A DNA stretch of 38,515 nucleotides. Origin: Saccoglossus kowalevskii. Lineage: Eukaryota; Hemichordata; Enteropneusta; Harrimaniidae. The stretch is from positions 452,734 through 491,248 of the forward strand of contig NW_003158224.1 in NCBI RefSeq assembly GCF_000003605.2, given 5' to 3'. Below, in pieces: positions 11,522 through 38,515 of this stretch; the stretch's first letter is position 1, and each line of letters begins with the position of its first letter. The position numbers and the translations under genes were made by a program. Under the pieces are notes generated by a model that was not told the origin of the DNA, did no database searches, and saw only the letters and a list, made by a program, of their open reading frames with translations.

Positions 11522-11835
11522 ACTCTATTTTGAGAAAAGGACTCAATTAATTTGTAACATGTGCAGTACTAGTAACTTTTACGTTGGATTACTCCGACCC
11601 CACCGATGTACCCTAACTGGGCACAGAACTTATTTATTTTTGTACTATTTAGCATTAATGCTAAAGCTTTTCTTCCTTTTCTAAAGCAGTTATTATTTAG
11701 AAATCGGATAAAAGTTGTTTGAAACCTTCGCTCATCAAATGAGTCGTTAGGTATTCATTCTGTAATTAATTGTAATTACTGCGTTTTTTTTTTACTTATA
11801 ACAGTGTTAAAATAAAAGACACGTTGAATTCTATG
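11522..11835 (+). other. Sp5: Sp5 3' UTR with AU-rich element
   Basis: About 300 nt from the stop codon to the poly(A) signal. It contains TTATTTATT (11630-11638), the AU-rich nonamer associated with rapid mRNA decay. Fast turnover would suit a dynamically regulated Wnt target; this is inference from the motif. Confidence 0.6.
11811..11816 (+). terminator. Sp5 poly(A) signal AATAAA
   Basis: Canonical hexamer about 290 nt after the Sp5 stop, followed by a GT-rich stretch (GTTTGCTGGCGTGTG) as expected of a downstream element. Confidence 0.8.
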
Positions 11836-11839
11836 TCAT

Positions 11840-13020
11840 TGTTTGCTGGCGTGTGATTTTGTATGTGAGATTGAGTCGCCCCTTATCGCCCTCCAAACAC
11901 CCCTGTATTATATTTCTGCGAGGCCAACACAGTACTAAAGCTCAATACAATCAACAGAGTTTGCCTGTATTTTGTACTGCAGAGTTTCTCAGAACATTTG
12001 CACGTACAATGATAAGATTCGATTCCTATTGCCACGGTGTTGCCACATTCATAGTTACAAAGTTGTGCACTTGAACAAACCCTGATGTGCATGATCCACC
12101 CACATATAGCCGGTAATTGATATATTATTATGATATATAAGTTGTGTTTTTAGTTATGCATAACATTTACACAAATTAAAAAAAAAATATCGGTTTACTA
12201 CTTCTGGTATATTGCCCCATGTCTCTGAAATAATGCTAGGTACTAACATATGTGTCCGGGAGTTTACCGTCTTCGATCCTATACGTGAGCGTTTGCCTCT
12301 CGGCGCTGTTACGAGAATAAATTCACTCGTCCAATAATTTATTCAATGGTGTATGGTGTGGTTTCATTGTACACATTCCAACCCCCAACAAGATATATTT
12401 ATTCCTGTAATTAAGATTTTGTGGCTCGCGTGTTTAACTATATATTGTTATTATTTCAGTACGTGTTTATGTTAGCTTGTTTTTTTAAAAAGTGTAGAAC
12501 ATGTGACTATGGCCAGCCATATTTTTTCATCTGTTCTTACAGGCCGTTGTGGAAATATACACGGTGAAAACAGAATATGAATAATCCTGTGTATTACATG
12601 CCATGTGCCGTTGTACTACTTGTCGGTGTTCATGGTAACGTTTTTTTTCTAAAACTGTTGACAAATTATGGTTATTATTTACAAAAAAACGCACCGCGAG
12701 TTATAATCCCCGAACGGTGAACATACAAATAAAAACAGTTTAATATAAACATTTTTAATTAAAAACGTAGACATGGACCATTTGTCACATTTGCAATTCT
12801 TATCTGTATACCGAATGTTCATTTGTCCACGCATTGTTCTAACCACTTTTTCAAACGACTCGGTGATTGAAATACCCCCATATAATCGTGTAAATAACAT
12901 AAGTCGAGTTTTTATCCATTCCTATAGAACTTTAATTTAATAGTAACAATATTCTTCTTATTTTTAAAAAAAGTTACGTTTCCAACAAGATTTGTCGAAT
13001 TCATGAGATCTACCCAGCAC
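11840..13020. other. Intergenic, no gene seen
   Basis: AT-rich DNA with short open frames only. A 73-codon minus-strand frame at 12679-12900 has no recognisable domain or good splice sites and is not called. Confidence 0.6.
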
Positions 13021-13025
13021 ACACT

Positions 13026-13241
13026 ATGCGTAGTTTAAAAACCTGTGTATTTCTTGTATTTATTGAATTAATTTTTGTTATTACCCCAGCAATTATCATA
13101 GAAGCCCGAACACTAACAGGGAAACTGTGTCGTTCATGTAGAGCCCATAACCTAAATACTAGTAGTTGTAATCTAAAATATACATCATGTTTTATTCCAT
13201 TTTCATTTCAAATTCAAAGCGAAGAAAAGGTAAAAAACTAA
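13026..13241 (+). CDS. Candidate small secreted Cys-containing peptide
   Basis: A 71-aa frame whose N-terminus looks like a signal peptide: MRSLK, then the hydrophobic run CVFLVFIELIFVITPAIII, then EA. The mature part has four clustered cysteines (LCRSC, SSC, TSCF) and an N-glycosylation sequon NTS. The start context has A at -3. A possible splice donor AAG|GTAAAA at 13229/13230 and an acceptor TTGTTGTCAG at 13271-13280 would define a 51-bp intron, giving 74 aa ending FEASAE. I recognise no family; a chance ORF in AT-rich DNA remains quite possible. Confidence 0.3.
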   Translation: MRSLKTCVFLVFIELIFVITPAIIIEARTLTGKLCRSCRAHNLNTSSCNLKYTSCFIPFSFQIQSEEKVKN

Positions 13242-13356
13242 GGATTTCTAAATTTCTCGTGCTGAACGTTTTGTTGTCAGTTTGAAGCCAGTGCGGAGTG
13301 ATCCCCGTGCCAGCATAGGAACAATCATCGATAACGAACATTTGGCAATTTCACCC

Positions 13357-13369
13357 GTTTCCAGGCAAC
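13357..13369. promoter_or_regulatory. X-box-like site (GTTTCC-A-GGCAAC)
   Basis: One perfect RFX half-site (GGCAAC) and one imperfect half-site with a 1-bp spacer, the same spacing as the perfect X-box at 21382. A frame beginning ATG at 13379 runs 13 codons to a strong donor GTGAGT, but I found no matching downstream exon. Confidence 0.3.
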
Positions 13370-13562
13370 AATTACACGATGACTGTAGCCTCCAAAGGAA
13401 CAGGAACAATTTCCACTGTGAGTTTCGGAATAAATCGGCACATTTTCACATGACGCTTGTACCTCGGCACTCAAACTGTTCTTTCCATGATCGTTTTCGT
13501 AATTTGTCAATTTCGTCTTCTGTTGTCAAGCCTATTTTCGATTATTTGAAATCACGCTAAAT

Positions 13563-13572
13563 GCGCATGCGC
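13563..13572. promoter_or_regulatory. NRF1 palindrome GCGCATGCGC
   Basis: Exact NRF1 consensus (TGCGCATGCGCT in context). Such sites usually sit near transcription starts of broadly expressed genes, so an unannotated promoter around 13.4-13.6 kb is possible. Direction is unknown; a minus-strand frame begins ATG at 13510. Confidence 0.45.
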
Positions 13573-13599
13573 TACAAACATCGGCATATCTCATAAAAC

Positions 13600-16500
13600 A
13601 AAGGGAGATTAAAATACAATAAAAATAACTACCCGTAGGACGAATCTTGGCAAAAACATTTTACTTTGAGGGAACTTCCGACATCTTTTATTTCCAGAAA
13701 TTACATCAGCTAATATTACTTATTTTTTTGAAATTCACTTTGCTTACATTTTGACTGAATTGTGACAAATGAATAAAATGTCTTTCCGCCACAAATTCTC
13801 ACGAGAGTACTGTATGTACGTGCACTTTCTATAAATACAATTATATATATAATTATTAAAATTCAAATTAAAAAAAAGTTTCACCAGTAAGTTATAAAAA
13901 GACGAGAATTAAACATGAATACAGGAACAATTTATTGTACTGCGTTCATAAATGGATAGGAATAGGAAACGCGATATTCTGTCTCGCCGGAAATTTGTTC
14001 TTGTCTACAACTATCATAATTCTTATGCATGTCTAATCGTGGTCGTATGATATGCGAAACCATTTACTTATTTGGCGAGGACGCCATTTTGGAATTACAA
14101 AAGAACTACAACACGGAGTTACAAGTATAAACATAAAACACTCAATAATTATCTATGACGTCATTAACAACGCCTGTTACGCGGTAATTATCATTGTAAC
14201 AAGCCGTCTTTTATTTTATGTAAATTTACCCAATAGATTAATAATGGAGTAAACGACCAATTATTCAACATCGATTTTTAATGGTTACGTTGTTTTTCAA
14301 TACGCAAACTTTAAGTTAGGTAATCGTGAACAAAATCGCAGCCCGAAATTTAGGCGCCGATTTGTTTTCATCTTTTCTGTTTTAAGCTTAAAACTGTAGA
14401 CGGGACATGCCTCTTTGTCTGGTCGTAATGGGACAAATGTTCCGACCATTAGCATATGTAACTAGTTCGATGTGTCGATTGAGAGGTCATCCTCACCCGG
14501 CCACCCAGTAACACGGACAACTTATAACCAAACCGCGTGTGGCACAACCAGAAATGCCATGTTCTGGTAGTATTCTGCTTATATTTCGGATGTACAATTT
14601 TCTCCGTTTCAGTTGGAGATTGGAGATCACGTTGATGTTCCGCTGAGACAACCGGGTGGTCGTGAAAAGTGAGGAGCACTTGCGTAAACATTCCTGATCG
14701 GGTGTGAGGTGGGGTGGGTGAATGAATTAGATGATGTTATTAGTCGGCGTGAATCAGACGATTTACCGAGAGTAAGCCGGTTGTGTGTGGCATATATTAA
14801 CTCTTTGTAATCATCCCTAGTTACTTTGATGTATAAGGACTTTAAAACATAAAACCAGCAGATAGTCAGATAAAACTATTCCCTTTATTTTGTACATGTG
14901 CCGTGTAATCGGAGTAGAACGGCGCCCTCAGCAGTCGCAAGGGGAGCAAAAAAACCCACAACATGTCATTTTACTAGTATCAGTTGGCATTTATACACAA
15001 CGGCTTCCCGAAGTACGCGTTTTGCAATATATGTTCTGCTACAGAGATTGGTTTACGACGATTAATTAATTAAATGTTGGTTATTGACAGGTACTCGAAA
15101 AAAAACGAGCTCCTAGAGACCTTGAAGTCAACGACGCTCGTCACGGTAGATTTGAATACAGTCTCTTGCTTGTTTTTATTTGTGTGTGTTTCCAATATTA
15201 TTTGAGTGTATAATTGGCGAAAGTCGAGTTGCCGCGTTCTAACCGGCCTTTTCGTTAACCCTGCTTTCGCTATTTATACAGTCACATCCTACTAATATTT
15301 TATTTTATTGAAGAAAAAAAGAAAAAGAAAAAAAAATATCCGTTGATACCAGTTATAACTGATCTGAATATACAAAATTAATAATTTTACTATCGTATAA
15401 TGATTTATTCAAACTACTTGTTAGTCTACAATTAAACATACATTGCTCTGGTATTCAACTCGTGTAAAATAAATAACCATGCTTGAAATATAGAAATGGT
15501 CGGCGGTTCGTGGAAACAACACTTTAAGCCAAAAAATGATTCGGCCCGCCGAGAAGCATATTTGACGATTTGAAATAGAATTTAATTTCTTCTGACGATT
15601 TCACTGCCCATAAAACAATTTCCTCAAAAAAAAAATGAAGTATGAACATAAAGCTAAAAGGTATATTTTTAGTAAGATTTTTTCAACACGCACATTAATT
15701 AAAACTGCAAACAGCTTTTGTTGTCAGATTACAACTCTGAAATAATAAAGATTGTTTATTTGTTTTTAATTTTTGCGGTAAAATTTGGTGGCGTTTTGCA
15801 AAAATGACCATCTGATCATTGCGATCGATGTGTTTGCATATGAATATGGCTACGATAAAACCGGAGAGGATTATGAGTTTTTAAACAGGACTCTGTGGCC
15901 TTGTACAGAGATTTGAATCACCAAGGTTAGCAACACCGACAAATGTTTGAGCTGAAAAGTGGAGATTCAATTGAAAATTTGATACGATCGGCGACGAGTT
16001 TCTCTAGCGCTGTAATGATGGAGCCTATAATCAAAGCCGTGTCGTTGAAGTGCACGTTACTACGCCCAGAGCTGCGCTCACTGACGATGTGCTGGCTGAA
16101 AGCACAGGACCAACTCGCGGAGAATTAAAAAAAAACTATTATTGAAAATAATAGCAGGGGTCTTCAATTTTATGATTAAAACGCCAGCAAATGGAACTCT
16201 AAATAACTTCCTTCGGCATTTTGCAACCGTGATACCAGTCCGCCGCAGGTAAAATAGCGTTTTCAATGAAAACATATCAACTCGCGGCGTGATAACCAGC
16301 TAAACCGCCAGACAGTTTCCCGCCCATTTTTGCACTGAATATTACCACTATACAACTATACAACTATACATTTACCATTTTTAGATGTTTTAAATTCTTT
16401 CAAGTTAAAAGGTATTATTTCAAAAATCTTGGAACAGCAAACACTTTTCACAAACAATCCTGATCGTTACATCCCACCATTAACGGCACTCGACAGCGGC

Positions 16501-17180
16501 ACAAATAAATCCACGAAAATCAGCGTACTGTTTCAATGCAACTTGAAGGGGCACCCAAATCCAGTCGAGCGAGTGTGTTTTGTATCCAAGAAGATAAATT
16601 GCAAATCTAAATACTACCAAAACATTAGAATTTCTCTTTAAATAGAAGAGATTTTCATGTTAATGAACTCACATATTTAGACAATATTTAAATTACTGAT
16701 AGTACGGACGAGCTGGTAGCATATTTAATTCGCTGAACCAGTTCGCCACGTTTAGCGGTAGAGTAAACGGATCTGACCCCAAACTAATATTTCCGCCATA
16801 AACTCCCTGAATCTCGAATCCACAATGCATTATTGTACATGTCTATAGCATATCACTCAACCATTACCGTGTTCATATTACCTTACACCGATAATGTTAA
16901 AGCGCGGTGGTCGTCGCGTAGCGCGTGTTCGAATTTCATGTAAATAAACAATGTATTTTACACGCGTTGTATACGTCGCTATGAGTCCCACATCGAACAG
17001 GACGCGGCAGTCGTCGACTGCCGCCCTTTAAAATCAACGTCGGACCGTTCCCATACTAGTATATGCTATTTATTGAAAAAAAAATAGTCGTAGAATTTAG
17101 ACAATCTGTATTGTGTATGCAATATACAAATAACTAAAATGATTTATACTGAAAAAACTAATGAACCTGGACAGTTTTTG
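13600..17180. other. Intergenic, nothing firm
   Basis: No recognisable gene. There is an exact TCF octamer CTTTGATG at 14824-14831. A 61-codon frame at 15943-16128 begins MFELKSGDSIENLIRSATSF; its composition is protein-like but it is too short and isolated to call. Confidence 0.5.
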
Positions 17181-17185
17181 CATCC

Positions 17186-17520
17186 ATGGTAAATCTTCCA
17201 GTCCAACACGTGACTGTTCGTGAGTCGCTTCATTCACAAAAGGGAGACGAGGACGATTTTCCTGAAAAATCGACAGCCCAGAAAATTAACGATTTTGATA
17301 ACAAAATTACAGAATGGATCCAATGTGCCGGCCTGTTCTCGCTAAGTGTCTCTAAAGCGCATTAAAAGGCTTGCCGAAAGAAGAACGCCCCAGGCAACGA
17401 AACGCACCGCCTTTGCCACAACAGCTGCCTATCCGTCAACTAGAAAGTGACGAGCAGGACGCCCTCGGGCGTTCAACCCAAGAACAAGCGACAGTGTTTA
17501 CCGTTTATACAGAAATATAA
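17186..17520 (+). pseudogene. Possible broken gene: two protein-like frames, shifted
   Basis: Frame 1 (17186-17365) starts MVNLPVQHVTVRESLHSQKG and stays polar and protein-like to TAA at 17363. Near 17353 a second frame opens (17356-17520) reading SALKGLPKEERPRQRNAPPL and on through an acidic, Gln-rich stretch to TAA at 17518. A one-base shift near TCTCTAAAGCGC would join them into about 110 residues. I recognise no domain. It could be a decayed gene, a gene with a sequencing error, or coincidence in a locally GC-richer patch. Confidence 0.25.
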
Positions 17521-17822
17521 AGAAACGCAATTTTTCAGGTTGTTGATACATTTCCGGCATAAACAACGTGATGAAGCCAACATCGTCACACCCACAATTG
17601 TAGGAGATCTATTAAAAAAAAATAATCTTTCAAAAACGCAAACCCAATTAAAAATAACCGAATGTAGACACGAAGTTCGATAAGTTCAGAACTGAGTGAT
17701 TCCACACTGACTGTTAGCGTATAGAGCAGTTTCTCAACATCGATATTCAGACTAACGATAATTTGTTTCTTGAAAGACACTTTCTTATAATGTGTTAGTT
17801 TGTTTTGTTTTTTCAACGAAAG

Positions 17823-18003
17823 GAGTTGCAGCGGTTAGATCAAGTGTTCGATTCGGTGATAGGCCACCCGGGTAGACCGCCGACTGGGACGGCGTGGTGT
17901 CTTACCAACGGTGTTGCGGCAACCACACATGTTAACCTCTTCTCGAAACAAGATCACCACGCTGGACTGAACGTGTTAAACGGTGTTATTTTTGTCGACA
18001 ATT
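17823..18003 (+). CDS. Possible exon of unknown gene
   Basis: After a pyrimidine-rich stretch and AG at 17821-17822 (TTTTGTTTTTTCAACGAAAG), a 59-codon frame begins ELQRLDQVFDSVIGHPGRPP and ends at TAA. Composition is protein-like (Gly/Pro/Val rich, HVNLFSKQDHHAGLNVLNG). Phase does not fit the frames at 17186-17520, so no gene model is built. Confidence 0.2.
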
Positions 18004-18009
18004 AAGACG

Positions 18010-20320
18010 GAGATCGCCGAGATATATATTCGAGATGGAGTTTGAGTTACCGGCAGAACAATTTTAAGTTATCTCACTTATTAGTAGTTGGTAAACAAAC
18101 AAGTGGTACACGCGAAAAAGTTCTAAACTAAGCTTACAATCGAACCACTGACATTACTTCCGCTGAGTGTCGCCCGGTGTTTTCACGGTGAACTTGGCAT
18201 TGGTGGTACGCCCCGATGCCGTGTCCGGTACACTTAAATACCATTCCAACACACTTTTAAAGAACCGCTTTATGGCCATTTTTGTCGTAGTTTTTAATCA
18301 ACGTTATTCGGTCCACAATGACTTTCGAGGTCGAACAAAAAAAGGATTTCCCAGCTACTATTAGCAGAATATACGCCAATTGATGTGACATATTGCACCG
18401 TGTTTGAAACTACTAGTGTTCCAATTTATTTGTTCAGTATAACATGAAATAAACAATATTTTGAAAATAGTGAAACATACAGCTCATGTGACTAGTGTGA
18501 CGTCACGTTGGTTTAAACCATATTCGTTTTTAATTGATAGAAAGTGTGGCGTTGGCCGAAACTGTGCTGTATTGCAACATGGACGTTTCCCCCCCATAGA
18601 TGACATCATAAAACAAGAAAATAACATGTAATTTGTCATGTTTCCAGTTAGTAGTATACCATCGACCCACAATTATATCCCAATGATTTTGTGATTGACC
18701 GTATAGCTTATGAATCTCTTGTGTGAATTATGAAAACGGACCCCTAGCTGCCATCTTGAACTTGTTGACATTCGTTTATGAAATTAGTTTCGTACAATAT
18801 ATATTTTGTAATAAAAGAAAGCTGACTTGTACTATATATTTCATGAAATACACCAGGAACTCGTCCTAGACCTGAAATTGAATTTTTAGAATGTCGACAA
18901 CAAAAAAAATGACTTTAGTATACGCATAAAAACTTCGCTTTAGGCGACATGTTTTTTTTTCTTCACGTTATCCCTAGACCCCGGAAGTTCTCTAGGGCCA
19001 TATGCGTTATCTAGATTCCGTTGAATTGAATTGCATATCGCTATACATTAAATGCACGGGAATGCCTTTGATAGTAGTGTGAATAGGAATGAATGGATGC
19101 TCGCGGTTTTAAATATGCTATGTGGATAACTTTGAGTTTTTAAATTTTGTCTTATATCGCATCAGCAAGTTGTCACAGACATTAGATTTGTCGTACTAAA
19201 AATAATAGTATTCTGGCTGTAAACGTGTCGTTCGATGCAATATGCAAACGCGAGTTTACATTTACCTATACATACAGATAAATGAGAGACGCATGTGTAT
19301 TAGAGGAAACACTGCCATGTTTGTTTGTTTTTTTGTTTAGGATAAAAAATACTTTTAATTAATATGTAATATCAGGATGAAATTTCAAAAAAGAAAAATA
19401 TCAAAAATGCTCAGAAATACCCAAATCAACATTTTCTCTTTAACTTAATATAAAATTGTGTCAAATAATAGTTATTGTTGTTTACCGTTGACAAAATTAC
19501 GAGTCATTGTGAATCATATAGTAATAGTATAATGTATGGTTTAGTAAAGTCATCCATTGATTAAAATAATTAGCAAAGTTACTTTCAGTCCATGTTGGGA
19601 ATTTGACAGGGTAGCTTTACCTGCTCTAGTTTGTTCTAACAGATAAGGGCAAAAGGAAACTTCGTCAGAAGAATAGTCAGATACGCTACTGCTCCCCCTC
19701 CTCCTTCGGCGATGTGTCCGGAGTCAAATCTCGACAAATTACCATCTTTTCCTTTTGTAAAAGCCTATCAAGTCCGATCTATTAGAGGTAGACCGTTATA
19801 AGATTATGGACGGGAATATTAGAGACACACTGCGCACATTTTTTTTTCCATTTCCTTTGTGTACCAGTTTCTTCCCCTGGTGGTGTTAGTGTAAATCTCG
19901 CATTGGCTGACTCTCCCTTATGTTTTTTTTTTTTTTTTTTTTTTTTTGTGCAGCAAAATCCACCCTAAAGTTTTCCGAACAATAAATATTACCTCACGGC
20001 TTACAACTTAGAATGTCCTTATAATTAAGTTAGTTCTGATTTCAGGAAATTGTAGTCTCCGAAATACTAATAACAAATCAAATAGCAAGTATTTTTTTTA
20101 ACATTGTGCTTTTTGTGGGGGTGGGAGAATTGTCTGCAGTGACAAATCCCATTACACTAGCCATGTTGATTGTAGAACGCTTGGACCGTGACAAAGCTCG
20201 TCGTCGCAGGATTTCCACAAACTAGTTACGAATAAACTATTTCTCCTTCTTTTCAGTTGCTGTTTTGATTTTTGTCAGAATAATTATTTAAATTGCCGAT
20301 AAATATGCGCAAAATTTCGT
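18010..20320. other. Intergenic, no gene seen
   Basis: AT-rich, no convincing frame. A 25-base T run lies at 19923-19947. Several ATG-led frames of 60-66 codons are within chance expectation. Confidence 0.6.
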
Positions 20321-20324
20321 TCGT

Positions 20325-21189
20325 TTATAGAAAATATTTGATAAAATGCATATAAAATTGTCGACCGGTCGCATCAAACAAGATGGCGACTGTAAAAATA
20401 GACGAAAAAGTACCGACAGACGATGTTCGGGTGAATGCATTTTTATTCACGTCAGGCACGAGAGAAATGAAGCTGAAAAATGAAATATTACAATATGGTA
20501 GATAGTGAATGGAGATAAGGCACGGGTCGGTGCACAAAACACACAACATAAAGAGCAGCGAATTACCATAAAGAAAAATGCCGCGCTGTTTGTCGACGCT
20601 AAAACTCACGCCCATATTGTTCATCGTCTGCGTGACACAAACGTCGTTTAGGTGGCGCAAATGTGACTTCGGGTTTTTAAAGGTGTAATTGTTACAATGA
20701 AAAAAAATACGACAAAATACTGTCCAGTTTCGACAATTCATCTCACCGCTGTTATCTCGGCGCCGACTCTAGATCAGCTCTCGGATCAGCGCCGTTGCAT
20801 AGAGACGACCAATTTGCCAGTTTACAATCGGACATTGCATTGAGATTAGAAACACTGTCCCGCCACATGCCTAAATACCAGTTGTATTTCCTTTCCCCAA
20901 ACCGCCGAATTGCAAGAACGTTTAGACCGAAGACTGCCACCCAGTAATAAAACGGTGTAGACGTCAGTTGTGAACGGCTTATATGTCCCATACTCATCGA
21001 CACATGTTGTAGACTATTTTGAATAGCTTCTGTGTACCCGGGTCTGTGTAGTTTTTTTTTCAAATGTGAAGATTTACAACGAAAGTTGAAAAATTTATAA
21101 CATTCCCGCTGTAAATCGAACATACTGTGTCCAAATGTACTTTTAATCTTCGATCCAATCGGATTTAGATTTTGCAAGGTATCATACAA
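20325..21189 (-). other. Two adjacent long open frames, status unclear
   Basis: On the minus strand a 145-codon frame (21189-20752, MYDTLQNLNPIGSKIKST...) is followed by a 138-codon frame (20741-20325) in another frame. The first starts about 190 bp from the X-box at 21382, so a divergent X-box-driven gene is conceivable. On the plus strand the same DNA holds ATG at 20383 in the strong context CAAGATGGCGAC (also a YY1-like motif), reading MATVKIDEKVPTDDVRVNAF for 39 codons, and a 90-codon frame to 20945. No domain is recognisable in any of them. By composition, one frame of this length is expected by chance in a window this size. Confidence 0.25.
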
Positions 21190-21193
21190 GCCG

Positions 21194-21197
<4 letters not shown>

Positions 21198-21231
<34 letters not shown>
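21198..21231. repeat. (AT)n dinucleotide microsatellite
   Basis: Seventeen uninterrupted AT units, between the minus-strand frame ending at 21189 and the X-box promoter region. Confidence 0.95.
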
Positions 21232-21234
<3 letters not shown>

Positions 21235-21381
21235 TTGCGAGTAGTTCTAATAGGCGCGAAAGCAGTGGCTCTGTTTTTTTTTCCGGACATTCAACGAGCA
21301 CCTTAGCAACAAGCCACATTTGCACAACAGCATGCCGTCTGTCGTATGCTCAGTTTGTCAGCTCCGTTGAACGTCTCGCCG

Positions 21382-21394
21382 GTTGCCTGGCAAC
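21382..21394. promoter_or_regulatory. RFX X-box, perfect palindrome GTTGCC-T-GGCAAC
   Basis: Both half-sites match the RFX consensus with a 1-bp spacer. An extra half-site TTAGCAAC lies at 21303-21310. The X-box is the hallmark promoter element of ciliary genes and usually sits within about 200 bp of the start; here the candidate ATG is 162 bp downstream. Being symmetric, it could also serve a minus-strand transcript. Confidence 0.75.
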
Positions 21395-21555
21395 GCCCAA
21401 ACGCGTTATCACAACAAATCCACCCCGAGTGTTATCCTTATCAAAATTGTAGCGGGCATCACAGTGTTTGATCACCAAGAGGAAGCGCTGAAATCAAAGC
21501 AAAAACACGAAGCAAAACGTACGTAAACACGGCGTCCTTGGGTTGCTCGGATCGT

Positions 21556-22042
21556 ATGCCGGACAGTAGCAGTAACATGGAAAACGTGATTGACGGTATT
21601 GTATTGATATCAATGATGATAACTCTATCCGGTTCTCTGAGGTCATTTCTACATTACATTTTACTTTAGTTGAATAGGGGAAGCTACTTTCCGGTTAATC
21701 GAAATTAAAATAGTTGCAATTTAAACTTTAATAGCATTTTTGTTTACAAGTTTACACGTGAATTAAATTCCACCTACTTTACAAAACCATGTTAGATGGT
21801 CTCCATTATAGTTCATTGATTTTTAGTCGAAGAACGGTCACAGACAAATAACCAGACGGCACCGGTTCGGCAGCTGAGTAAAAACACAGCCCGTCATCCG
21901 TACCGCTGTGCCATAACCCTGAACACCCCGCATGCTAAGTAAATGTGAGTAAATATGGCACTGACCTAAAATTAAACATTTATTTCCTCGTTTTTACAGA
22001 AGACCGACGATGCGAGTTTATGGGTATCGCCATCCAACATAA
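21556..22042 (+). CDS. Candidate ciliary micro-gene, three exons, ~64 aa
   Basis: Exons 21556-21595, 21827-21938 and 22000-22042. Phases are compatible: GAC G|TC and GCT AA|A. Donors are GTATTG and GTAAAT; acceptors are TTGATTTTTAG and an excellent TTTCCTCGTTTTTACAG. The protein starts MPDSSSNMENVID, has a polar middle, and ends RHPYRCAITLNTPHAK then RPTMRVYGYRHPT and TAA. A perfect RFX X-box lies 162 bp upstream and AATAAA 138 nt after the stop, so all parts of a small gene are present. If the second donor is not used, the frame stops two codons later (AAG TAA), giving 51 aa. I do not recognise the family; short basic Tyr/His/Pro-rich proteins are common among axonemal microtubule inner proteins, but that role is inference. 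The first donor is weak. Confidence 0.55.
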
Positions 22043-22179
22043 GAACCGTAATCCCAAAACTTCCGTAATCAAGATAACACACCAAGCGCGGACAAACCTC
22101 AAAGCACCACATATGTAAATTAGAGTACAGCGCCACCAACGTGGGCGGTACTTTACCTAACTTGCCACTTGGGGGCGCT

Positions 22180-22185
22180 AATAAA
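22180..22185 (+). terminator. Poly(A) signal AATAAA of the micro-gene
   Basis: Canonical hexamer 138 nt after the TAA at 22040-22042, followed by T/G-rich TGTAACAAGTTTTTGAATG. Confidence 0.55.
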
Positions 22186-22209
22186 ATGTAACAAGTTTTT
22201 GAATGCAAA

Positions 22210-25200
22210 TCTCTAAATTTTCAACCAAATTTGGATATGGTATCAGAATTATTAAGCCAGTAACAGAATTAAGTGACATTTTATTGAAGTATCAGTGTGG
22301 TTAAATCAGATTCATTCTTTGATTAATTTAATAGAAAAACAATAAAAACATTTTAAAAAGTGTTAGGGTTACAAACATATCTGAACTTTAGACAAATTTG
22401 CATAAATAAACATGACTGGGGCTGAATTCAAGTTCAGGGGATAACAATTTGAGATTTGCTACTTGAATCTTTACAGGTTAATGACTGCTGTTCCACAAAC
22501 TGACACGACAAGTGGGGTAATATTTGCCAAAATAAACACATTTTCTTGAACAATTTTTACAAGTCAGATTCATAGGTAGAATAAAATGTACATCACTGTC
22601 AAAATAAAATAAACAACATAACAAATAATGCACCACAGACAACCAAATATCTGGATGTCACTGACACTTTGAAATCAAGTTTTTCCAAAGTGTAAATATA
22701 ATGTTTAGGTCTGAATTGTCAGAGTCAACCATGTTCAGCAAAACAGAACAAAACAAAAAATGGTTTCATTTTTCGAAGAGACACAACTAGACATTTTGAA
22801 CATTTGATATATGTGTATTTCTTTCATTTCTTTCTGTCAAACAAGCTTAAAAATCTGTGATGAGTACATTTTTAAATGATTATCAAAAACTTAAATATTT
22901 GTTTTTGGGTTTTTTTTAAATGAAAAAAAATGCTCCATTAGCTACAGTGAAAGGCATAAGACTGTGATCATTATAAACATATTAAAAATATATTTTTATA
23001 AATCAAAATGAATGTTTGAATTCAAATTGACTTATTGTATTGTGACATCATCGTTGCTTCTGATGAATATTAATGAGATGGTTCAACATTATCCAATCAG
23101 CAAGCGCCTCATTTTGAATATGAGGGCGGTTACAGTTGCTATGTCATGTGAAGGCATGTGTGAGTATTATGAGCGTAGACAATGTTTAGCGCATGAGCCA
23201 ATCACTGTTAAATATTTGAATTTGAGTGAAAGCTGACGATCAGCATTCCCAAATATTTATAAATACGTTTATAAACAAAGCCCGACTTTTTTACAGTATA
23301 CACTATGAAACTTCTACGTGGTAATAGTCTTATGAAACACAGCTGAATAGCACTGAAAATAAAATCAAGGTAAAACAGATTACTGTAGTTTGTAATGTTT
23401 ACAAGAATTGTATGCAATTACAGAAGCTACATGCATAATATTTCGCAAACGAGAATTAAAAAAAAAAAAAAAATTAAATCCCTCCTGAATACAAACATAA
23501 ATGACCTTTCACATCTTCACAGGTTAAAGGTCACAATGACGGAACAACTACTCCCAAAAATGGAACTGGAGCCAGATTTATGTATAAATTTAACAATGTT
23601 TTAAAATTGGAATGTTTTTCATCAAGGTGTCGTACACCACCAAACAAAATTAAAATATTCAACAATATAGAAAATTAGAATATATTAACTTTTGTAAACT
23701 TTATTTAATTAATTTGAAATAAACTGTAAAACATGTCTTTTTCGCGAGCATGTCTTTTTTGCAAATTTATTATCAATGACTTTATTATCAATTCAAAATG
23801 GCCGCCAAACAAAGAAATCAATGATGACAAGAGAGATTTGCTAAATCAACATGTCGCTATTACGTCATTTAACTACAAATCGCTAAAATTGCATGCCGCT
23901 TTTTCAACATGTTTTACTGTAGTTAGTTTTCTAGAACCAATAATATATAAAACAAAGTTCTTAATTTTCAACATTTTATGAGATTTACTAAATGTGAGCA
24001 AAAAAAATGTTTTTTTTTTGTTTTTTTTTCAAATACACAAATTGAGGTCAAAGTGTCAGGAATGTTGTGAGTGTATATTGAACCACAGATTGCACTTGTA
24101 GAGCAAATACATCATGATTTTGTTAAGGTAGAAGCCCATCATGATTTTAAATACCCAGAATTTATTATTTTTTAATAAATTGTACTTCTGGTCAATATAA
24201 GAATATTGACTTAAAAAAAATTGGGGGTCACCAGGTTAATTTCTGAGAAAATCATGTTTGTATTTTAGTGGATAGCAGCCATTTTGGCACTATTATAATG
24301 CTTTTACCAAAGATTCCTATGGAAGAGATATTATGCCATATCTCAAATTGTAGGCTGGTGACATTGTCATGCGATTTATGACCAACTTTCTCAAAAATAA
24401 TGAGTAGGCTTATGGGTACATTAGAATTCAACTCAATTGCGATTAGATCAAATGAAAGCTTACGTACATGGTGAGAGTTTGATGCTAGTAATAATAAACA
24501 TTGCACATAGAGGCATCAAATATAATATTAATCCTTGATTGAATAGTAAATCACATATTTTCATAATTTTGTCCAATAGTTATGAAGTGAAGTTTAAATA
24601 AATAGACCTTGGATGGCGAAGATGAGTTTGCATGTAGTGGATTTGTAAAATATGAAGAGAAAAATGCCCCTAAATGATTGTTATTATTGTTGATCTTGAA
24701 ACAATCCATTTTGAATTATATTTTGGATTTCTGGTTAGTTTCAGATTCAGCTTCATCACTGATGGCTTTGTATTCACTTTTTCTAATCATTTATCTGAAC
24801 TGTGAAATCAACTTTCATTTTTCTATACTTGTGATTTCACATGTCACCAACTTGACGCTTGAGCACTTTCACCCTGGTTTATAAATTCAATGACCTGGAG
24901 GTCATAGTTCAAAGGTCACCACTTATATCAAGACATCGCCATCTTTTTGATATAAGTATTTAAATCTGCGATCTCAACTATCGAACACAACATGCAGTGA
25001 CCGATAAATGCTGCAACATTACCACAAAACACATTTCATGTCAAACATGCAACCATTTTTTTTTCAAATATTATGAAATGCTGAAAAAATAGAAAATGAT
25101 GTTATCTGGCAGTGACACCAAATATATTTATAATTGATATGAATATTTAATTACATGATTAAAATACAAACCTGAATAAATATATTGACATAAAAAAACA

Positions 25201-25490
25201 CTTGTTATAATTTAGTTGTATAGTGATAATATTTTCAAAATATTATTAAATCTTTGAAATCTAACATTTTTTTCACCTGTACTGTGGTGCAACACTTTTC
25301 ATGTTTTTATGAATTTTTTTTATAATTTCTTGTAAATTTTAGTCGAAATTGACATAATTTCCAATTGGCTAGAGGTCTTGATCAATTTAAAAAAAAATTA
25401 TTCATCTTTATTTTGAGAAAGGTGAAAAAGTTGAGATTGCTGCACGATGGTTAACATCCACTGACAACAACAGCTTTGCAGTGGCATGCA
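22210..25490. other. AT-rich intergenic region
   Basis: Base composition becomes strongly AT-rich here and stays so to the right edge. Frames of 60-85 codons are present but none looks protein-like. No RNA gene seen. Confidence 0.6.
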
Positions 25491-25501
25491 TAAACTGAAC
25501 T

Positions 25502-25530
25502 TTTATTAAATATTTGCATAGAGTTTTATT
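25502..25530 (-). terminator. Candidate Myo3 poly(A) signals
   Basis: Two AATAAA hexamers on the minus strand (25530-25525 and 25507-25502), about 400 nt after the stop codon. The second is followed by a GT-rich stretch on the transcript strand. A weaker ATTAAA is at 25648-25643. Confidence 0.45.
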
Positions 25531-25923
25531 TTCTGTACATATTGTAATATTTTCCCCCCTCACAATATTCTGCCAATCCCTGTATATTTGTACTTTGGGA
25601 TGATCCAAGCACAAATGCAGTGTTGTGTGGGTCATACCATTTTTTAATAGGCAGGTACAGGTACTAATGCTGAGGGTGAAGAAATGTGACTTTCTTCAAT
25701 CTTGATATGAACATGATATGTAAATTAACCAAGTTATAACAGTTTTTTCATCAACATGTGGCAGTTATTTTGATACAATGTCATAAAAATTATTCGTAAA
25801 GTTGCAATAAAGATAATAAATAATAAATTCATGACATAAATGATCTAATCATTGCAAACGGCACCACTTGCGAGTTTCATAAACTTTGTAACTGCCAAAA
25901 ACATTATTAGCATTTACTGTATT

Positions 25924-26098
25924 CTATAATGCTGTAATAACACGCCCGGTAAACGCAACATCTGAAGGCACTCTTCTCAACATACCACGCACATTAAACT
26001 GTCCGTAGGAATCCATCTGAAGTTCGGCTCCATTGCCAATGGCGGGCATTATACCCCCAGGTCCATGTGGCGCACTCCCGTGACCAGCAGGTTTCACC
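25924..26098 (-). CDS. Myo3: Myo3 terminal exon
   Basis: 175 nt, acceptor CTATTTGGTAG, stop TAG at 25926-25924. It has a Gly/Pro-rich part (HGSAPHGPGGIMPAIGNG), then YGQFNVRGMLRRVP and the end VAFTGRVITAL. The basic patch is in the position of the class III tail homology II actin-binding motif; that identity is inferred. Confidence 0.75.
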
Positions 26099-29000
26099 CT
26101 ACCAAATAGAAATAAGAACACACTGTTATTAATAAATTGCAAAAAATCCTGACAGCAAAAATTTTGAATTTATTTCTTGGTGGATCAAAAATTAATAAAT
26201 GTGTGAGATAAAAAGATGATATTCTATCTCTCAAAAACCTCACCTGTTGCCTGATATAGCTTCTACAGTTTTGAAAGAGGATTTTTTCTCAACTAACGGT
26301 TGGTGGTTTATCTCTACTTGAACTTCTATTTGATGAGATTCCTGTGAAATGAACTCAATTATTATACATCTGTCACCGTAACGCCATAAGTTACAGCGTG
26401 CCGTAATTTTGCGGTATTTTATGTGGTATTTTCGTCTTACCACATTAGGAAATGGAAATTCGAAATATGGAATGATTAGGCACGTAAGCGTCCTCTAATA
26501 ATAAAAACAAACATGGCTGCCACGAGAGTTTGACCGGATTCAACACAAAGAAGTTCGCTGATTCTGTTCTAAACATTTTGAATTTCGGCATTCCCATGGT
26601 GTATCCTCAGAAGAAAAAGATGTATAATAATAAGTTTATTACGAGAATACCTCAANNNNNNNNNNNNNNNNNNNNNNNNNNNNNNNNNNNNNNNNNNNNN
26701 NNNNNCGCTAATCAAAGTGTAATCAGTGAGGACAAAGCTACGACTCCAACTGGATGTACTTGATTCTGCATCCATAATTAAATTAGCATTATTAGGCGTC
26801 ACCAACAATTTTTTTTGTTTTGAGGCTGATGGATTTTCTAAAACATTCAATAGCCCCCTCTAGTGGTGAACCTTCATAATGATGTAACAAGTCTTTCAAT
26901 ATAATAGAACAACGTATTTAAATTGTCATTTATCAATTATATTAACTGCAACACGAATTCCCAAAAATTTGAATTTACTGCACATAAGTGCAATGCATTA
27001 TGGGTGAGAATGTCTCATTTATATAATTGAAAACTATTACTATACTGGAAACTCACTAAAAACGGGAATTTGTTGTATTGTTTCAACAATATTAAGATTC
27101 ATATCAATAAACATGATTTTTTTATTGTATCTTCATGATGTGAAGAAACAAATTAAATTTAAAAATGAAAATTTTAACATTTTCCCATGACATTTCAGAC
27201 CAATCAAAGACTACAATTTTTTGTCATGAAAAAGATGACATATAATATTTAAATTAGTTTAAACCTTAACAGGACATATGTGTATACTAACCGCTTTATC
27301 AAATGAGTTCCTCTCGAAGGCGTCATGGTAACCAAAACCATTAAGATTCCCATTCCATCCACTGATGGCTGATTCATCAACCGGTTTGTCATAGAGAGAA
27401 AACCTGTTTGGTCTGCAAAAAAGAGAAAATATGATTTCACAAAACTAACACCATCATTTTATATTCATTGACAGAAATGATGTATTTTCAAAACTTGTCA
27501 ACTCAAAAAGAGAGTTGAATTTCGTCACTGCCATGACGACAACAATTTTGTACAAACATTAGTAATTAATTAATTCTTGTGATGCTGATGAACGTCCTCA
27601 TATTTTCTTGATTCAAGGGTTGATTAGTGGAAGAGTTATGTGCATATGTGTAATATATATATAATATTTCATTGTAGCTACATGTATATACTCTGTCACG
27701 TTTGTCACATGATTTCAGACAAATCTATCACTGTATATGCACGTCACCTTATAACTGGAGCCATCTTATTGCCGTAACTATGGCGATTTTTATTGATATT
27801 TGCATGTATGTGGTGTCCACTCTGCGTCTCAGGGTTGCTCAGCTGTCGTAATGGAATTTTACTTGGTGATGATGAATCAAAACCGTTCATCATGCTTGAA
27901 TCGGTACCATTGCTCTGCATACTGTTATAGTACTCGGTGTCGCTGCTTGACGTAAGTTGTTTCAGTTCACTGCCAACAAGAGAAGAGATGACACAAAATA
28001 AACACTAGGATAGTTATTTAAACTTAGATCTTTATGTACAAATGTTGCCGAGCACATGTTATAATTTCATGTAATTTACAAGCACTACACTTCCACTTTT
28101 GTCACCTAATTTTTTTGAAATGAAATATTGTGCCAAAAATTAAATTCTCACATGTACGAACGGTAAGTCTAAAATTTTGTTTCTAAAAAGTAACTGAAAC
28201 TTGACATATGTTAAGTTGTTCGTGTATACAGACATGCATTTGATCAGCATGCATTAGTTGATTTCAACGAGCATTGTGTCGTATATAAAACTACGCAGGA
28301 GAGAAATCAACATGGAATGCACCTCTGATCTAGAGGGCAATTGATATAAAAGTCAAATAAATACCGACACATTATAAGTACGCATGCAATTATAAAACAC
28401 ATTTACACGTACAAAAACAGATTTTTTTGTGTGAGTTAACAATCCAGATGTAAAATTCATAATGATATAGTTGTATACCCACTCAGTGGTTCCTGGAATG
28501 ACTTCCCAGACACAGTGAACATCCTTTAAATCCAACCAATCAGAAGGTGGTGCTCATCACATTTCGGGGTGTTTTTTGTAAAACCGTGCATAATTTGTTT
28601 GACACCAAGCATGCGGATGTGGTAAAAGTACTCCCATATTTTCCCAACCAAAAACATTTATTTCATGTGCAACATTTTCTTATAAATAATTTCTCAAAAA
28701 AAAAAAGTTATTTTGTATCAATACAGTTTGAAACATAAGTTTAAACAAATTACAAAACAATTTTATTTTTAGTAAACTTTGGCAGGAAACAAGTTATAAT
28801 TGTTAAAACTGAATTCATGCAGTATAGTGTGAATGAAGAGTAACCATGTCACATGCAAATATATAATATTCAAAAATAAAATTTGCATGCTACACTTAAA
28901 AGCCAATCAGAAGTAGATATAAATTATGTATGCAAAAAAGTTTGGCAAAATTCCAAAACTCAAACAACCAATCAGAGTGAAGACTCATTAATTATACATG

Positions 29001-32000
29001 CCAGAGCCAATCCCAGAACAAAGATCCCAGTTCAAAAGACAGAAAATAAAATCAGTTATATTTAAATTGGATGAAAATGATACTTTTATAGGCACAACGT
29101 GGTGGAGCTTGAGGAAAAATAACAAACAAAACATTACATGAATGGATGATATGATTATGTGAGGAATGGGATATACAAGCAGGGCTGGTAATAATTAATA
29201 TGCAAATGAGACAATTAATATGCACAAATTGAGCCTTTAAGACATTATGCATACAATATCCACAAACATTGTGGCTATTTTGCATATGGAAGAGTTGTTG
29301 ATTGATTTTGTGAATTTGTTTTATTTTTTGTCTACCAAAAATCAAGCAACACACATGAATGACTATTTTTAAAGTGTCTGAGACATGTCATACACAAGCC
29401 TGTATTTTTAAATGGGCCTTGCCCTAGTTTATGATTTTGTAGCAAATTTAAAACAACAGAATCTAAGCATTCAGCAGAAAAATGATGATTACTTTAAGTT
29501 TGGCCCACCCCACTTGTGGATCTTGAGTTTTTTCACCCACTGAAAAGTTTTTACACTGGAAATATGTTGGTTTTTGATTATCTGCAGAAATAAGAGTTTC
29601 CTTTCAGAACAGGGCAAAAATGCCACATTAGTTTCACAACTACTGGTAATCAGATGAGATAAAAAGAGCAAGGCGATGGTTGTTCTAGTTTTTCTAGGGA
29701 TATGTTTTTTTTAATGGGCTACTTTTAGCTTTAGAACGCATATCAAGATTCGCTGTCTTGGTCTCCAAAGTGCATTACTAACAATATTCAGCAAACAGGG
29801 GTGAACCACATCTCCAACAAGAAGAAGTCATTAAAAGTGTACTGATCCCTTGAAAAAAATGAAATGCCATGCCTGGGTCATGTCAAACATAAACAACATA
29901 CCGGTAATACTTGTGTTTCGAAAATTATACTCATAGTTAATAACATGCATTTAAAAATTCTGATTCGTAATAATACTAATTTACAAATGATTCTATTGAT
30001 TACAAGAGATGTATATTAATATTGGAGTTTTTAAAAATGAAAGAACTTGATTCTGAAATTTCATATTCCACAGTGCCTATGCAGTGGAATGCAAGCTTGT
30101 ATTCACTAGGAAACATCACAAACTTCTTTTGCAGAGCTTCAACCCTGCTTGAGTTTTCAACTGTTTGTGACCTTAGACATTTTTCTGAGTCAAAAACAAT
30201 ATTCCTTAATAATGTCTAATCAGAAACACTCACAAGTATTATTTGGCCATATTGTTAGCTAGGAAAACATCGTCCATTTCTTAAGCACTTCAATCAGAAC
30301 TCATTGTGGGATTTTATGAACACAAATATACGTAAACTACCCGGTAACACAACTCTACCAGTGGCATATTATTCTGTTTATTTGACCATCTTCTTAACAC
30401 TTCGCCAGATTTTATTATTTGATAATTTGACTACCATTTTAGTTAATTCTATTGTCAGAGGCTACACTAATTCTGATTGGGTGAATGTTTTAGACATGCA
30501 TCCAATCATATCTATGTATTTTACCAAGGTTGAACACGCATCCTCTTGGTAGAATCACGCATAGCTTCATGGGAAATTAATGTTTACATCAAATTCACAT
30601 TCAATTGAATATATTTCATTGTATATTTTGCGCCAGAAATACCTATTGTCTACTGGAGTTGATTAACATTTTTGAAAAAAATATTTCAACATCTATATTT
30701 TGAAAGGTGAAAAGAGTTATGTAATTTAATTCATCTGAGGTAAACAAAATTTGTGCAACTGAAATAAACATATGGAAGAGATCGAATCGTTCTATATAAT
30801 AACAAAGTGAACAAGAATGTAGCCAATGTTAATTTGTTTTTGATTCTACAAAGGAAAATATATAAAAATGTTGCACTATAATTTGGGCGGGAAAAATTAA
30901 TGTTCAAATAAACAGCTTGAAAGTAAAAAAAAAATTTCAGAATGATTTGGTATTATCATCATCATATTAATTTTTCTAAAAAAAAAATAAAACAAGCAGC
31001 CTGTCGGCTGAGATAGCTCCGCTGTTAGCAATGCACATTTCAATTAAAGAACTGAAGATATCATTAAAAAATGAACAATATGTATAGTATCAAACTTGCT
31101 GTAGTATCGGACTTGCTGTTTTCAACAAGAAGTGAAAAACATCACTTTTTACCAAAAATGACAAAAATATTCACCAAAATTTGAGAATTAAAGATATCAT
31201 CACAAAATGAACAAATCTGAGAAAGGTCCACATGTAGTATACCTATATTTGTAATATCAAAGCAATTGGAGTTACGGTTTTTAACAAGAAGTCGAAAATA
31301 TCACTTTTTACCAAAAATGACAAAAATATTCACCAAAATTAGAGAATTTAAGATATCATCACGAAATGAACAAATCTGAGAGATCCACATGTAGTACCTA
31401 TATATGTCATATCAAAGCAATTAGGGTTACGGTTTTTAACAAGAAGTCGAAAATATCACTTTTATTCACCAAAAAATAGAGAATTTGAGATTTTGACATG
31501 AAATGAACAAATCTGAGAAAGAACCATCCAAGGTACTTGCATATCAAACTTGAAAACATTCTGACTTGCGGTTTCGAAGAAGAAGTTAAAATTGTGAAGA
31601 CGGACAACGACGGACAATCAGTAATATGAACAGCTCCGCTGTGTCGACTTTGTTTAATGCTCAAAATGTACAGCACATGAGAGACAGTTATAGAAGGAGG
31701 GGTTTGTTGTGATGTCTGTCATAATGCCGTTTTCCTATAGTCTGATTGGTTCTGCAGAGAAGCACACACTGTTCATATTTATAATGGTCAATGACTGCTT
31801 AATTACAGGCCTGAATTGTTAAGCTGTAATCCCAGCATAATCTATCAGGTTTTAATCTAGTATAAAGTCATCACATTCCTGAATCAACTAATATGCAAAT
31901 TTTGATAAACAGTTTCATCAGCAATCAAAAACGCAATTATTTTAATTAATTAGAATATTAATGAGGCCATCTAATATCATTCAGTTTGACCATTTTATGC

Positions 32001-35000
32001 TTTTATATTTTAGTATCAACTGTCCATTGTCATCTGTCACAACACATTGTCGGCTGATGCTTTTTCCCCAATCATTTCAAATATCCATAGAGGGTTACAG
32101 CAGGTATGTAATAATATCATTTAATAAACTGTGTTTTTGATACTTTGAACATTAACTTACCCAGTCATCTTTCCTTTTCTCCGGTACACCTCTGTACCAG
32201 AATTAATTGCACCATAATATGCAGCATCCTGTAGAGAGTACGGCACCTTGACCAATCCAGCTCGTTTCATCTGACGAAGTCGCCGGTCTGATAGCTGTAC
32301 ATCGCCGTTTTGCATGTTAATTTGATGTAATGGCATCTCAGCATCTGGGAGGGCTGGAGTGTTGATTTTGTGCAAAGCGTCATGGAACTCTTCACCATGG
32401 TTCTTGATCTTTGTAAAGGTTAAAGTTCAAAGGTTACAATACAATTTTCAAATAACAGAGACAGGGTAAATCATAATTTAAAGAATCAAAAGGTTTTTTC
32501 CAGGTTTTACGTGCATGGTCTTGGGGACTCCAGTAAAGTGTTGACTGCTACATTATTCCGTGATTTTTACAGATCCACTCATGAAATCCAAAACAGGAGA
32601 TGACAATCTTTTTTTATGAAATTCAGTTTACATGAAAGCTCTTAAATCATGAAATTTCTTATCATAAAAAACCAAATGGTTACTGTATACGAGTAAAACC
32701 AATATTATTTCCAATGAAAACTAAACTTGGTTGTATACTGTAAAATACTTTATTTTAGCTGGAATTAATTTTCACTGAAAAGACTTTCTGGGTGTTTTGT
32801 ATGGAATTTATTTTCACTGATTTTTGATGAGTTGAATGTAAAATATAGGAAGAAAGGTATAATTGCTGGGTTTTATTTCCACTGAATTATTTCTTCATTC
32901 CTTTCGCGAAAATAGCGAAAATTAAATCCAAGCCAAAATAAAGTATTTTACAGTAGTCCTTCATGACATAAGCATACTTGATGTGGAACATTCCATTTTA
33001 AGGTAGGGATGGGTTAAACCACTATGAATATAGGGGGTTCTATACCTGCTGTAAGAAGAAAATCAAGCGTGTTTCTTGCTGCGACCTGTATAGCTGTATT
33101 TGCTGATACAGCGATCGTTTCTTCCACATTCGGAACCAGCGCTGCAGTAGGATGGACGAGTCCCATTTCTTACTATCATGTCGTGCTTTGATTACTTTGT
33201 ACTGCTGTCGACATAAGAAACCCCTCACAGCTACGGGTACGGAGAAAAATAATAATGTCAGATACATGACAGACATAAAATGTGATTATCGGCATCATCA
33301 GTTTTTTTACTACAAATTAAAAAAGTAAGTTTTCAGAATAAATTTTCCTCAAATATACGAACAAGCACTAAAAACCAATCAAAACATATACCCCCCACTA
33401 AAATTGACATAAAAGTTAAAGTTACAATTAAGGTAGAACCCTACTTATAATCTTAGAAAAAGTTGATCACTGACACTGTTTTTTAGTTTATTATGAACAA
33501 TCGTAGCGCTATAATTCCATAGTAACATGAAATAGCATTCAATTGTGTTACAGTGTTATATTTTGGGAAATTTGCCAAATACCATTAAAATATTTTTCAG
33601 AACAGTTCCATAGAACAAAATTTAAAAAAAGCCAAACATCATATGTTGTTAATTTCCAAAATAAATGGCATAACAAAAAATAGAATGTATAATACGTTTA
33701 TGTATAATACGTTTTATTATGTTAACACGAGAATACCGTACGAAATATGGAGAGATTACGCACATATGCATTCCAGGGGTTTGACTGGTCCCAACACAAA
33801 GAAGTTTGCTATTAAAATCTGAAGACAACTTCAATTAGTCATGAATACAATTTATTACTACATAAATAAATTCTAGGTATTGTTATTTATGAGTAGGCTT
33901 CTACCTTAACATAAAAATAAGTGTTTTCAGGTAATGGATTAAATGAATGGATTAAAAAACATTGACGGCTGATAAGACTAGAACTACGATATTCGTCTTA
34001 CAACTAGAAAATGCACAGGTCTGATAAAAACAATAAATATTTTCCGTTTTATATTTTGTCAGAAAAATGATAAATAGCAAAAATATAAAAAAAACAGAAA
34101 AATAACACATTAGTACCATATTCAACAATATGCAAATAGCTGATGCCATATATGGCGTTATGCAAATAGCTGATGCCATATATGGCAATATGCAAATAGA
34201 TTGATGACATATATGGTAATATGCAAATAACTGATATTTGGCATACATGGGGAAAAATGCAGATTGAGGGACTACAAGGTAATATTACCGGTAGTAAGGA
34301 AACTAGAAGTAAACTAAAGTAACACAAAGTATGCCTGTCATATTCTCAACCATAGACTAAAATTTTCAACATGGCTGCTAGGCATTGATGTAGCTTTCAG
34401 ACACTGGGAAAAAAGCAGTGAAGCCCCACTGAAACACGAATGGCTATTTTATTTTACTTTACTGTTCAGTAATATTATGCACTTAAATTGTTAAATATAG
34501 ACAAAGATATTGTTGTGGGCAGAAATGAACATAATTTCAGTGAGAATATCATCACTAACATTATGTTGTTTGTTCCACGATACCTAGATCCCCTGTGGCC
34601 GAGAATATGACAATTGAATGACAGAAACAATGACAGTGTCACTCATAGCATGCTTATTTTTATTACTACATTTTTAACACAAAATATTTTTCACAAGCTT
34701 AGCATGCAGCTCACTACCCCTCTGTTCTGATTTGTCTCTGTTACAAAATCCATCTGCAAGTCTACTGACCTCTATGGTGAGTCCATGAATACTTTTGTTT
34801 TTCAGTGTAACAGAGAGAATCCACAACAAAAGAATATCACCAGACTAATATACAACAACTATTTCTTCAGCAAATTTTAACCTGACTGCACAAGAAGAAG
34901 TTGTTCCTCTTTCACATGCAACGTTTCAAATGATTCCTCCACTTTCCCAATATCCATCTTAAGTGTTCCCTCATCTGGGTTGATGTCCAAAACGGAAGCT

Positions 35001-37893: not shown

Positions 37894-38220
37894 CTATTTA
37901 ATAATATGGGGTCAAGGGTCAAACACATGCTGTCATGCAGTTATATGTGGTGAGATGTGGATTGTGGAACGTTTCATGCAAGAAGACCCACTGTTGCAAG
38001 TTAATGATGTAGATGGTGATATTAATTAACAGAATTAATTAATTTCAGTTATAAAATAACATCTCATGCCATGATATGCATCATGATTTTAAGAATTTTC
38101 ATAAATTATTACTAAGTACAAATTATGCATAACACAAAGTGCTCATTAATATACATGTATCTGGATTTTCAAAGAGTTGAAGTTAATAAATAACTGAATT
38201 CACATTTTAATCACATTAAA
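37894..38220. other. Myo3 intron, nothing seen
   Basis: AT-rich sequence upstream (in transcript sense) of the first visible Myo3 exon. No further exon recognisable before the window edge. Confidence 0.6.
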
Positions 38221-38515
38221 GTTAGAGGGTCTTTGCAATATTGTAAGGTTTTATGTGGGCCCACTGTTAGAGCTTTCCAGTAATACCAAGTTAGGGTGAC
38301 ATAATGCTGTACTGTCAAGTTAGGAGGCCTTGCTGTAGTTGTTGGATAGTGGGCCCTAACGCTGTAGTATAAGGTTAAGGGGTCCTTGCTATAGTGTCAG
38401 GTTAGAGAGTCTTTGCTATAATGTCAGGTTAGAGAGTCCTTGCTATAATGTCAGGTTAGGGGGTCCTTGCTATAATGTCAGGTTAGAGAGTCCTTGCTAT
38501 AATGTCAGGTTAGGG
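38221..38515. repeat. 27-bp minisatellite, runs off the window
   Basis: Regular units of 27 bp beginning GTTAGAGAGTCCTTGCTATA start at 38374, 38401, 38428, 38455 and 38482. Diverged units lie at 38221-38373. Some units contain the vertebrate-type telomere hexamer TTAGGG (GGTTAGGG). It lies inside a Myo3 intron, so it is interstitial. Confidence 0.9.

Follow-up and report, generated by a model that had tools for sequence, protein, structure and literature searches.

The window, a stretch of 38,515 nucleotides from Saccoglossus kowalevskii contig NW_003158224.1, contains a perfect palindromic X-box followed on the plus strand by a putative transcription unit of three short exons, together with a zinc-finger gene, two exons encoding IQ motifs, and a minus-strand open frame. 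Numbered from the first base of the window, these features are:

10364–11521, plus strand: Sp/KLF-type zinc-finger gene with three C2H2 fingers; CxCPNC box and Sp subfamily assigned by eye
20752–21123, minus strand: ATG frame of 123 codons, with no Pfam family
21382–21394, no strand: perfect palindromic X-box GTTGCCTGGCAAC, an exact match to an RFX dimer site with spacer 1
21395–21595, plus strand: putative exon 1, TSS position not fixed; coding sequence from ATG 21556 or ATG 21577
21523–21529, plus strand: GTAAACA, a Fox-type core between the X-box and the ATG
21596–21826, plus strand: intron 1, 231 nt, GT..AG; donor 2.9 bits, acceptor 5.5 bits
21827–21938, plus strand: exon 2 as originally predicted; extends to 21944 with the stronger donor
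21939–21999, plus strand: intron 2, 61 nt (55 nt with donor 21944); acceptor 10.1 bits
21940–21942, plus strand: in-frame TAA; with donor 21944 the protein would end here, at ...TPHAK
22000–22200, plus strand: exon 3, end approximate; the last 13 codons and stop 22040–22042, or all 3'UTR with donor 21944
22180–22185, plus strand: AATAAA, probable poly(A) signal, at a drop in GC and CpG o/e
33103–37078, minus strand: two IQ-motif exons, ~37019–37078 and a weaker one at ~33103–33159 that is below Pfam's cut-off

Pfam scans of all six frames (E up to 1) yielded no family in 11,601–22,600 and IQ motifs only in 23,601–38,500, and Rfam gave no family in the window. The two IQ-motif exons, between which lies a 330-aa open frame (34880–35869), may be alternative ends of a single IQ-rich gene. 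Myosin III, which lies next to Sp5 in human, was considered for the IQ-motif gene, a reading that was dropped because none of 56 myosin-head matches (from 65 of 70 candidates scored) is located on the window's contig, C4723, and because the minus frames of the 6 kb beyond the window contain no Pfam family. Tandem repeats are present at 34126–34235 (30-bp units), 31118–31463 (159-bp units), and 38382–38513 (27-bp units).

The X-box consensus GTNRCC N0-3 RGYAAC, and a tie between X-boxes and ciliary genes, are reported in PMC3414849. The site GTTGCCTGGCAAC matches this consensus and is the only one in the window to do so, bearing out the original prediction of a perfect palindromic RFX X-box, and the abundance of such sites in the genome (572 Mb) is beyond chance, with the window's own spacing, GTTGCCNGGCAAC, found at 84 sites compared with 2 for a reversed control. 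Across spacers of 0–3, GTTGCCN{0,3}GGCAAC occurs 323 times, versus 8 for the pattern read backwards; four of the six spacing-2 loci fetched share flanks, so that this total stems partly from one repeat family, and the spacing-1 count is therefore relied on here. None of the 14 spacing-1 sites fetched has a flank in common with the window over 300 bp either side, and comparison of the 14 among themselves reveals only one weak flank match of 34 bp, and these 14 are therefore not copies of one repeat. Given that the motif lies ~40-fold above its control, the simplest interpretation is that it works as an RFX site, and the X-box at 21382–21394 is very probably functional.

A dispersed repeat family (loci L034, L036, L037, and L038) carries GTTGCCATGGCAAC or a close form of it, which inflates perfect X-box counts and may scatter RFX sites. 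A second near-perfect X-box in the window, GTTGCCTGGAAAC, is found on the minus strand at 13357–13369, beside ORFs of unclassified nature.

The X-box begins 174 bases before ATG 21556 and 195 bases before ATG 21577, the latter being in the better context (AAC ATG G compared with CGT ATG C). There is no ATG between the X-box and 21556, a property shared by 452 of 5,000 base shuffles. The Fox-type core GTAAACA occurs in 15 copies in the window, counting both strands, and its presence near the X-box is therefore mildly unexpected at most, with a chance of ~6% (worked out by hand) for a stretch of this length.

From ATG 21556, the exons 21556–21595, 21827–21938, and 22000–22042 join in matching phases across two GT-AG introns to give a spliced ORF of 64 codons, with the stop and the AATAAA all as the original prediction described them. 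Its very good rating of the final acceptor holds, this site ranking 9th among 1,883 AGs, but the model as a whole was overstated in that the donors are weak: they score 2.9 and 2.6 bits with matrices not trained on this species, and rank 359th and 401st of the 2,230 plus-strand GTs. The GC content is 0.48 in exon 1, 0.30 in intron 1, 0.545 in exon 2, and 0.295 in intron 2. A blind segmentation on GC alone, at a penalty of 6, places breaks at 21596/97, 21825/26, and 22178/79, within 1–2 bases of the end of exon 1, the start of exon 2, and the AATAAA. At a penalty of 4 the exon 2 break shifts to 21851/52 and extra breaks arise, 21935/36 among them, and at a penalty of 8 the break at 22178/79 alone remains of the three; intron 2 is isolated at none of these penalties. 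Across 22178/79 the GC content falls from 0.47 to 0.29, and the CpG observed/expected ratio from 1.21 to 0.11. The region just past the AATAAA, 22186–22600, has a CpG observed/expected ratio of 0.11, compared with 0.95 for the whole window.

Anchoring a search at the X-box with site thresholds applied returns exactly one three-exon model starting from the first ATG, that of the original prediction, with laxer thresholds returning 71 models, three of which are equally good in splice scores and one of those also in GC contrast. Among 2,852 other anchors, taken from the window and from 20 further loci, 149 give some model and 125 a model with equally good splice scores, and none matches both the splice scores and the exon-intron GC contrast when a frame is required. 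With local GC kept and a frame required, neither 2,000 mask-keeping randomisations nor 2,000 shuffles of 20-bp blocks produced anything as good. Removing the frame requirement, an equally good two-intron structure was again obtained in none of 2,000 mask-keeping randomisations and none of 2,000 block shuffles, the real sequence giving two structures, one of which uses another first donor, 21693. The two-intron layout is more than chance against local GC, although in these layout comparisons the splice matrices were not trained on this species, the thresholds lay at or slightly below what was observed, and anchors close to each other do not count as independent. The DNA of the candidate is single copy in the genome, and the transcript is likely to be real.

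The protein that would be made depends on the end of exon 2. The best donor within 21382–22185, 21944 (AAT/GTGAGT, 8.0 bits), lies six bases past 21938 (2.6 bits), and its use would place the in-frame TAA at 21940–21942 within the exon, yielding a product of 51 aa from ATG 21556 or 44 aa from ATG 21577, so that the final 13 residues are possibly never translated. Termination two bases short of the end of an exon, leaving an intron in the 3'UTR, is unusual, and both donors are therefore kept here, with the stronger donor slightly favoured. The product of ~64 aa is thus confirmed as a model in the sequence, but as one of several forms (44, 51, 57, and 64 aa). Similarly, the C-terminal RPTMRVYGYRHPT, stressed in the original prediction, is contained in the 64 aa model but needs the weaker of the two neighbouring donors, being preceded by a stop otherwise; that it is made is somewhat doubtful, and it should not serve as a family signature. 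The exon 2 peptide, EERSQTNNQTAPVRQL...TPHAK, is read in the only one of the three plus-strand frames to be open up to the TAA. The predicted peptide is basic, with a pI of 9.2–10.2, and hydrophilic.

Taken by itself, the open frame is near chance: dinucleotide shuffles do as well as the first-ATG frame of the spliced RNA in 353 of 5,000 cases, and as well as that of the alternative transcript, spliced at donor 21944, in 502 of 5,000. Of 214 null ORFs, 16 score as high as the candidate in codon use (14 for the 51 aa form), as do 31 of 2,000 base shuffles; the score was trained on only 845 codons, all taken from the window and 330 of them from an ORF presumed coding. That the locus encodes a protein is weakly supported, and the case for the candidate being coding is evenly balanced. 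The spliced peptide matches no Pfam family at E values up to 10, and no credible match is found in the PDB, the best being a bacterial-type dehydrogenase (E = 0.063) that presumably matches by chance. A search for paralogues in the genome returns the locus itself and one match at E = 3, and scans of prokaryote and viral contig collections reveal no relative of the candidate.

These results bear on a reading in which the RFX-driven spliced RNA is real but untranslated, or constitutes the 5' exons of a transcript coding elsewhere, with the frame incidental. Consistent with such an RNA, the structure retains its significance when no frame is required, the frame considered alone lies close to chance, the strongest donor cuts that frame short, and the candidate protein is without relatives in the searches made; however, the codon score lies above 198 of the 214 null ORFs, and the first two ATGs share the long frame, with one in good context. 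We consider this reading unlikely.

The X-box could also be real but serve another gene, either a leftward gene on the minus strand or one reached as an enhancer, in which case the three-exon model would have arisen by coincidence in a promoter patch rich in GC. X-boxes are near-palindromes able to act in both orientations, and such a role would draw on this generally recognised independence of orientation, on a GC content that is high to the left of the X-box too (0.49 at 21232–21381), on the weak plus-strand donors, and on the 123-codon minus-strand frame, whose ATG, at 21123, lies 259 bp to the left of the X-box. This frame is, however, poorer in codon use, with 48 of 214 null ORFs scoring as high, compared with 16 of 214 for the candidate, and it is preceded, leftward from the X-box, by minus frames of 28, 45, and 41 codons, with the first minus-strand donor above 5 bits located at 20747. 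Furthermore, the six frames of 11,601–22,600 contain no Pfam family, and the layout statistics (0 of 2,852 anchors, and 0 of 2,000 in each of the two kinds of randomisation) argue against coincidence; we consider this reading rather unlikely.

Finally, FAM229 (UPF0731, PF14982), a family of small proteins enriched in testis, is a very remote prospect for the candidate, which would then be its invertebrate form: a colinear weak match to human FAM229B (P.RQL, then H and C) was picked after the fact and its pairwise score is reached by 278, 92, and 71 of 5,000 shuffles at three gap costs, whilst PF14982 does not match the candidate at E values up to 10 but matches the human FAM229B control at 1.1e-51. 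The two are alike in length and in the order of a few residues, a resemblance that appears from these sequence comparisons to be within chance, and the candidate fails to match the family profile; the testis enrichment is that of mammalian FAM229, as reported for FAM229B (PMC7401351). A search of the genome with PF14982 found nothing, the control likewise being without a match there.

The original suggestion of a small axonemal protein had the X-box and the residue composition as its sole basis, and neither a family assignment nor a convincing match to a solved structure backs it. In a choanoflagellate, RFX motifs are reported in 21.9% of conserved ciliary promoters, versus 2.0% of all promoters (PMC10530576), and in Drosophila an X-box upstream of the ATG is described as not predictive by itself (PMC2375033). 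Control loci in the present genome comprised four tektins (from 4 of 4 contigs with matches), one B9-domain gene, and six dynein heavy chains (from 6 of 8 contigs with heavy-chain N-terminal matches), not all of which are necessarily axonemal. In the flank examined (1.2–4.4 kb each), none of these 11 loci has a strict site or one fitting GTNRCC...RGYAAC, the apparent start having been recognised by eye at 7 of the 11; a one-mismatch X-box, GTTGCCAGTGACAAC, occurs at the dynein locus L047, ~0.24 kb upstream of the apparent ATG. Around X-box sites themselves, 104 of 110 ORFs, chosen by length and GC at 20 sites, gave 10 Pfam families, among them RIMBP2 Ig, OATP, and integrase, and six frames read 1.75 kb outward from 14 sites gave nine, among them AA permease, colipase-like, LRR, and RIMBP2 Ig, none clearly ciliary in either survey. 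Beyond the X-box itself, nothing found here shows a ciliary role, which we put forward only tentatively for the candidate.

As in the RFX-regulated ciliary genes of animals, a palindromic site lies shortly upstream of the putative start, with a Fox core nearby; unlike those genes, the candidate encodes no known ciliary protein and is very short. Small microtubule-inner and axonemal proteins include PIERCE1/2 and CFAP141. The candidate resembles such microproteins in being a short, basic, and hydrophilic chain behind an RFX-type site, but differs in having no Pfam match and no credible match in the PDB, a collection that includes axoneme structures.

The evidence from composition and splice sites supports a short spliced transcription unit downstream of an RFX site. 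The original prediction retains its sequence facts, X-box, and layout, but its donors are weak and its ~64 aa product is one of several forms. The best explanation, in which our confidence is about evenly divided, is a short spliced gene driven by the RFX site, probably for a small basic protein of unassigned family. Such a gene would consist of a single-copy, three-exon transcription unit of ~0.8 kb, starting beside the functional RFX site and ending at the AATAAA at 22180. RFX, possibly together with a Fox factor acting through GTAAACA, would switch the unit on in ciliated cells or sperm, and two short introns would be removed, with the first ATGs opening one frame for a basic, hydrophilic peptide of 44–51 aa (donor 21944) or 57–64 aa (donor 21938). 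The peptide may work by attaching, as a short chain that stays unfolded, to a larger ciliary structure; its predicted basic, hydrophilic composition is compatible with such binding to a larger assembly but is no demonstration of it.

Taken alone, the locus would represent one small gene whose family is unassigned. A lineage-restricted ciliary or sperm microprotein (44–64 aa) under direct RFX control, missed by annotation based on ORF length, is a more speculative and rather unlikely reading, which, if true, would place this microprotein in a set whose other members could be catalogued by searching away from each of the 84 perfect X-boxes of spacing 1. Should the transcript prove real, perfect X-boxes combined with the coincidence of GC blocks and splice signals would provide a way to very short ciliary genes of the kind dropped by standard gene finders.
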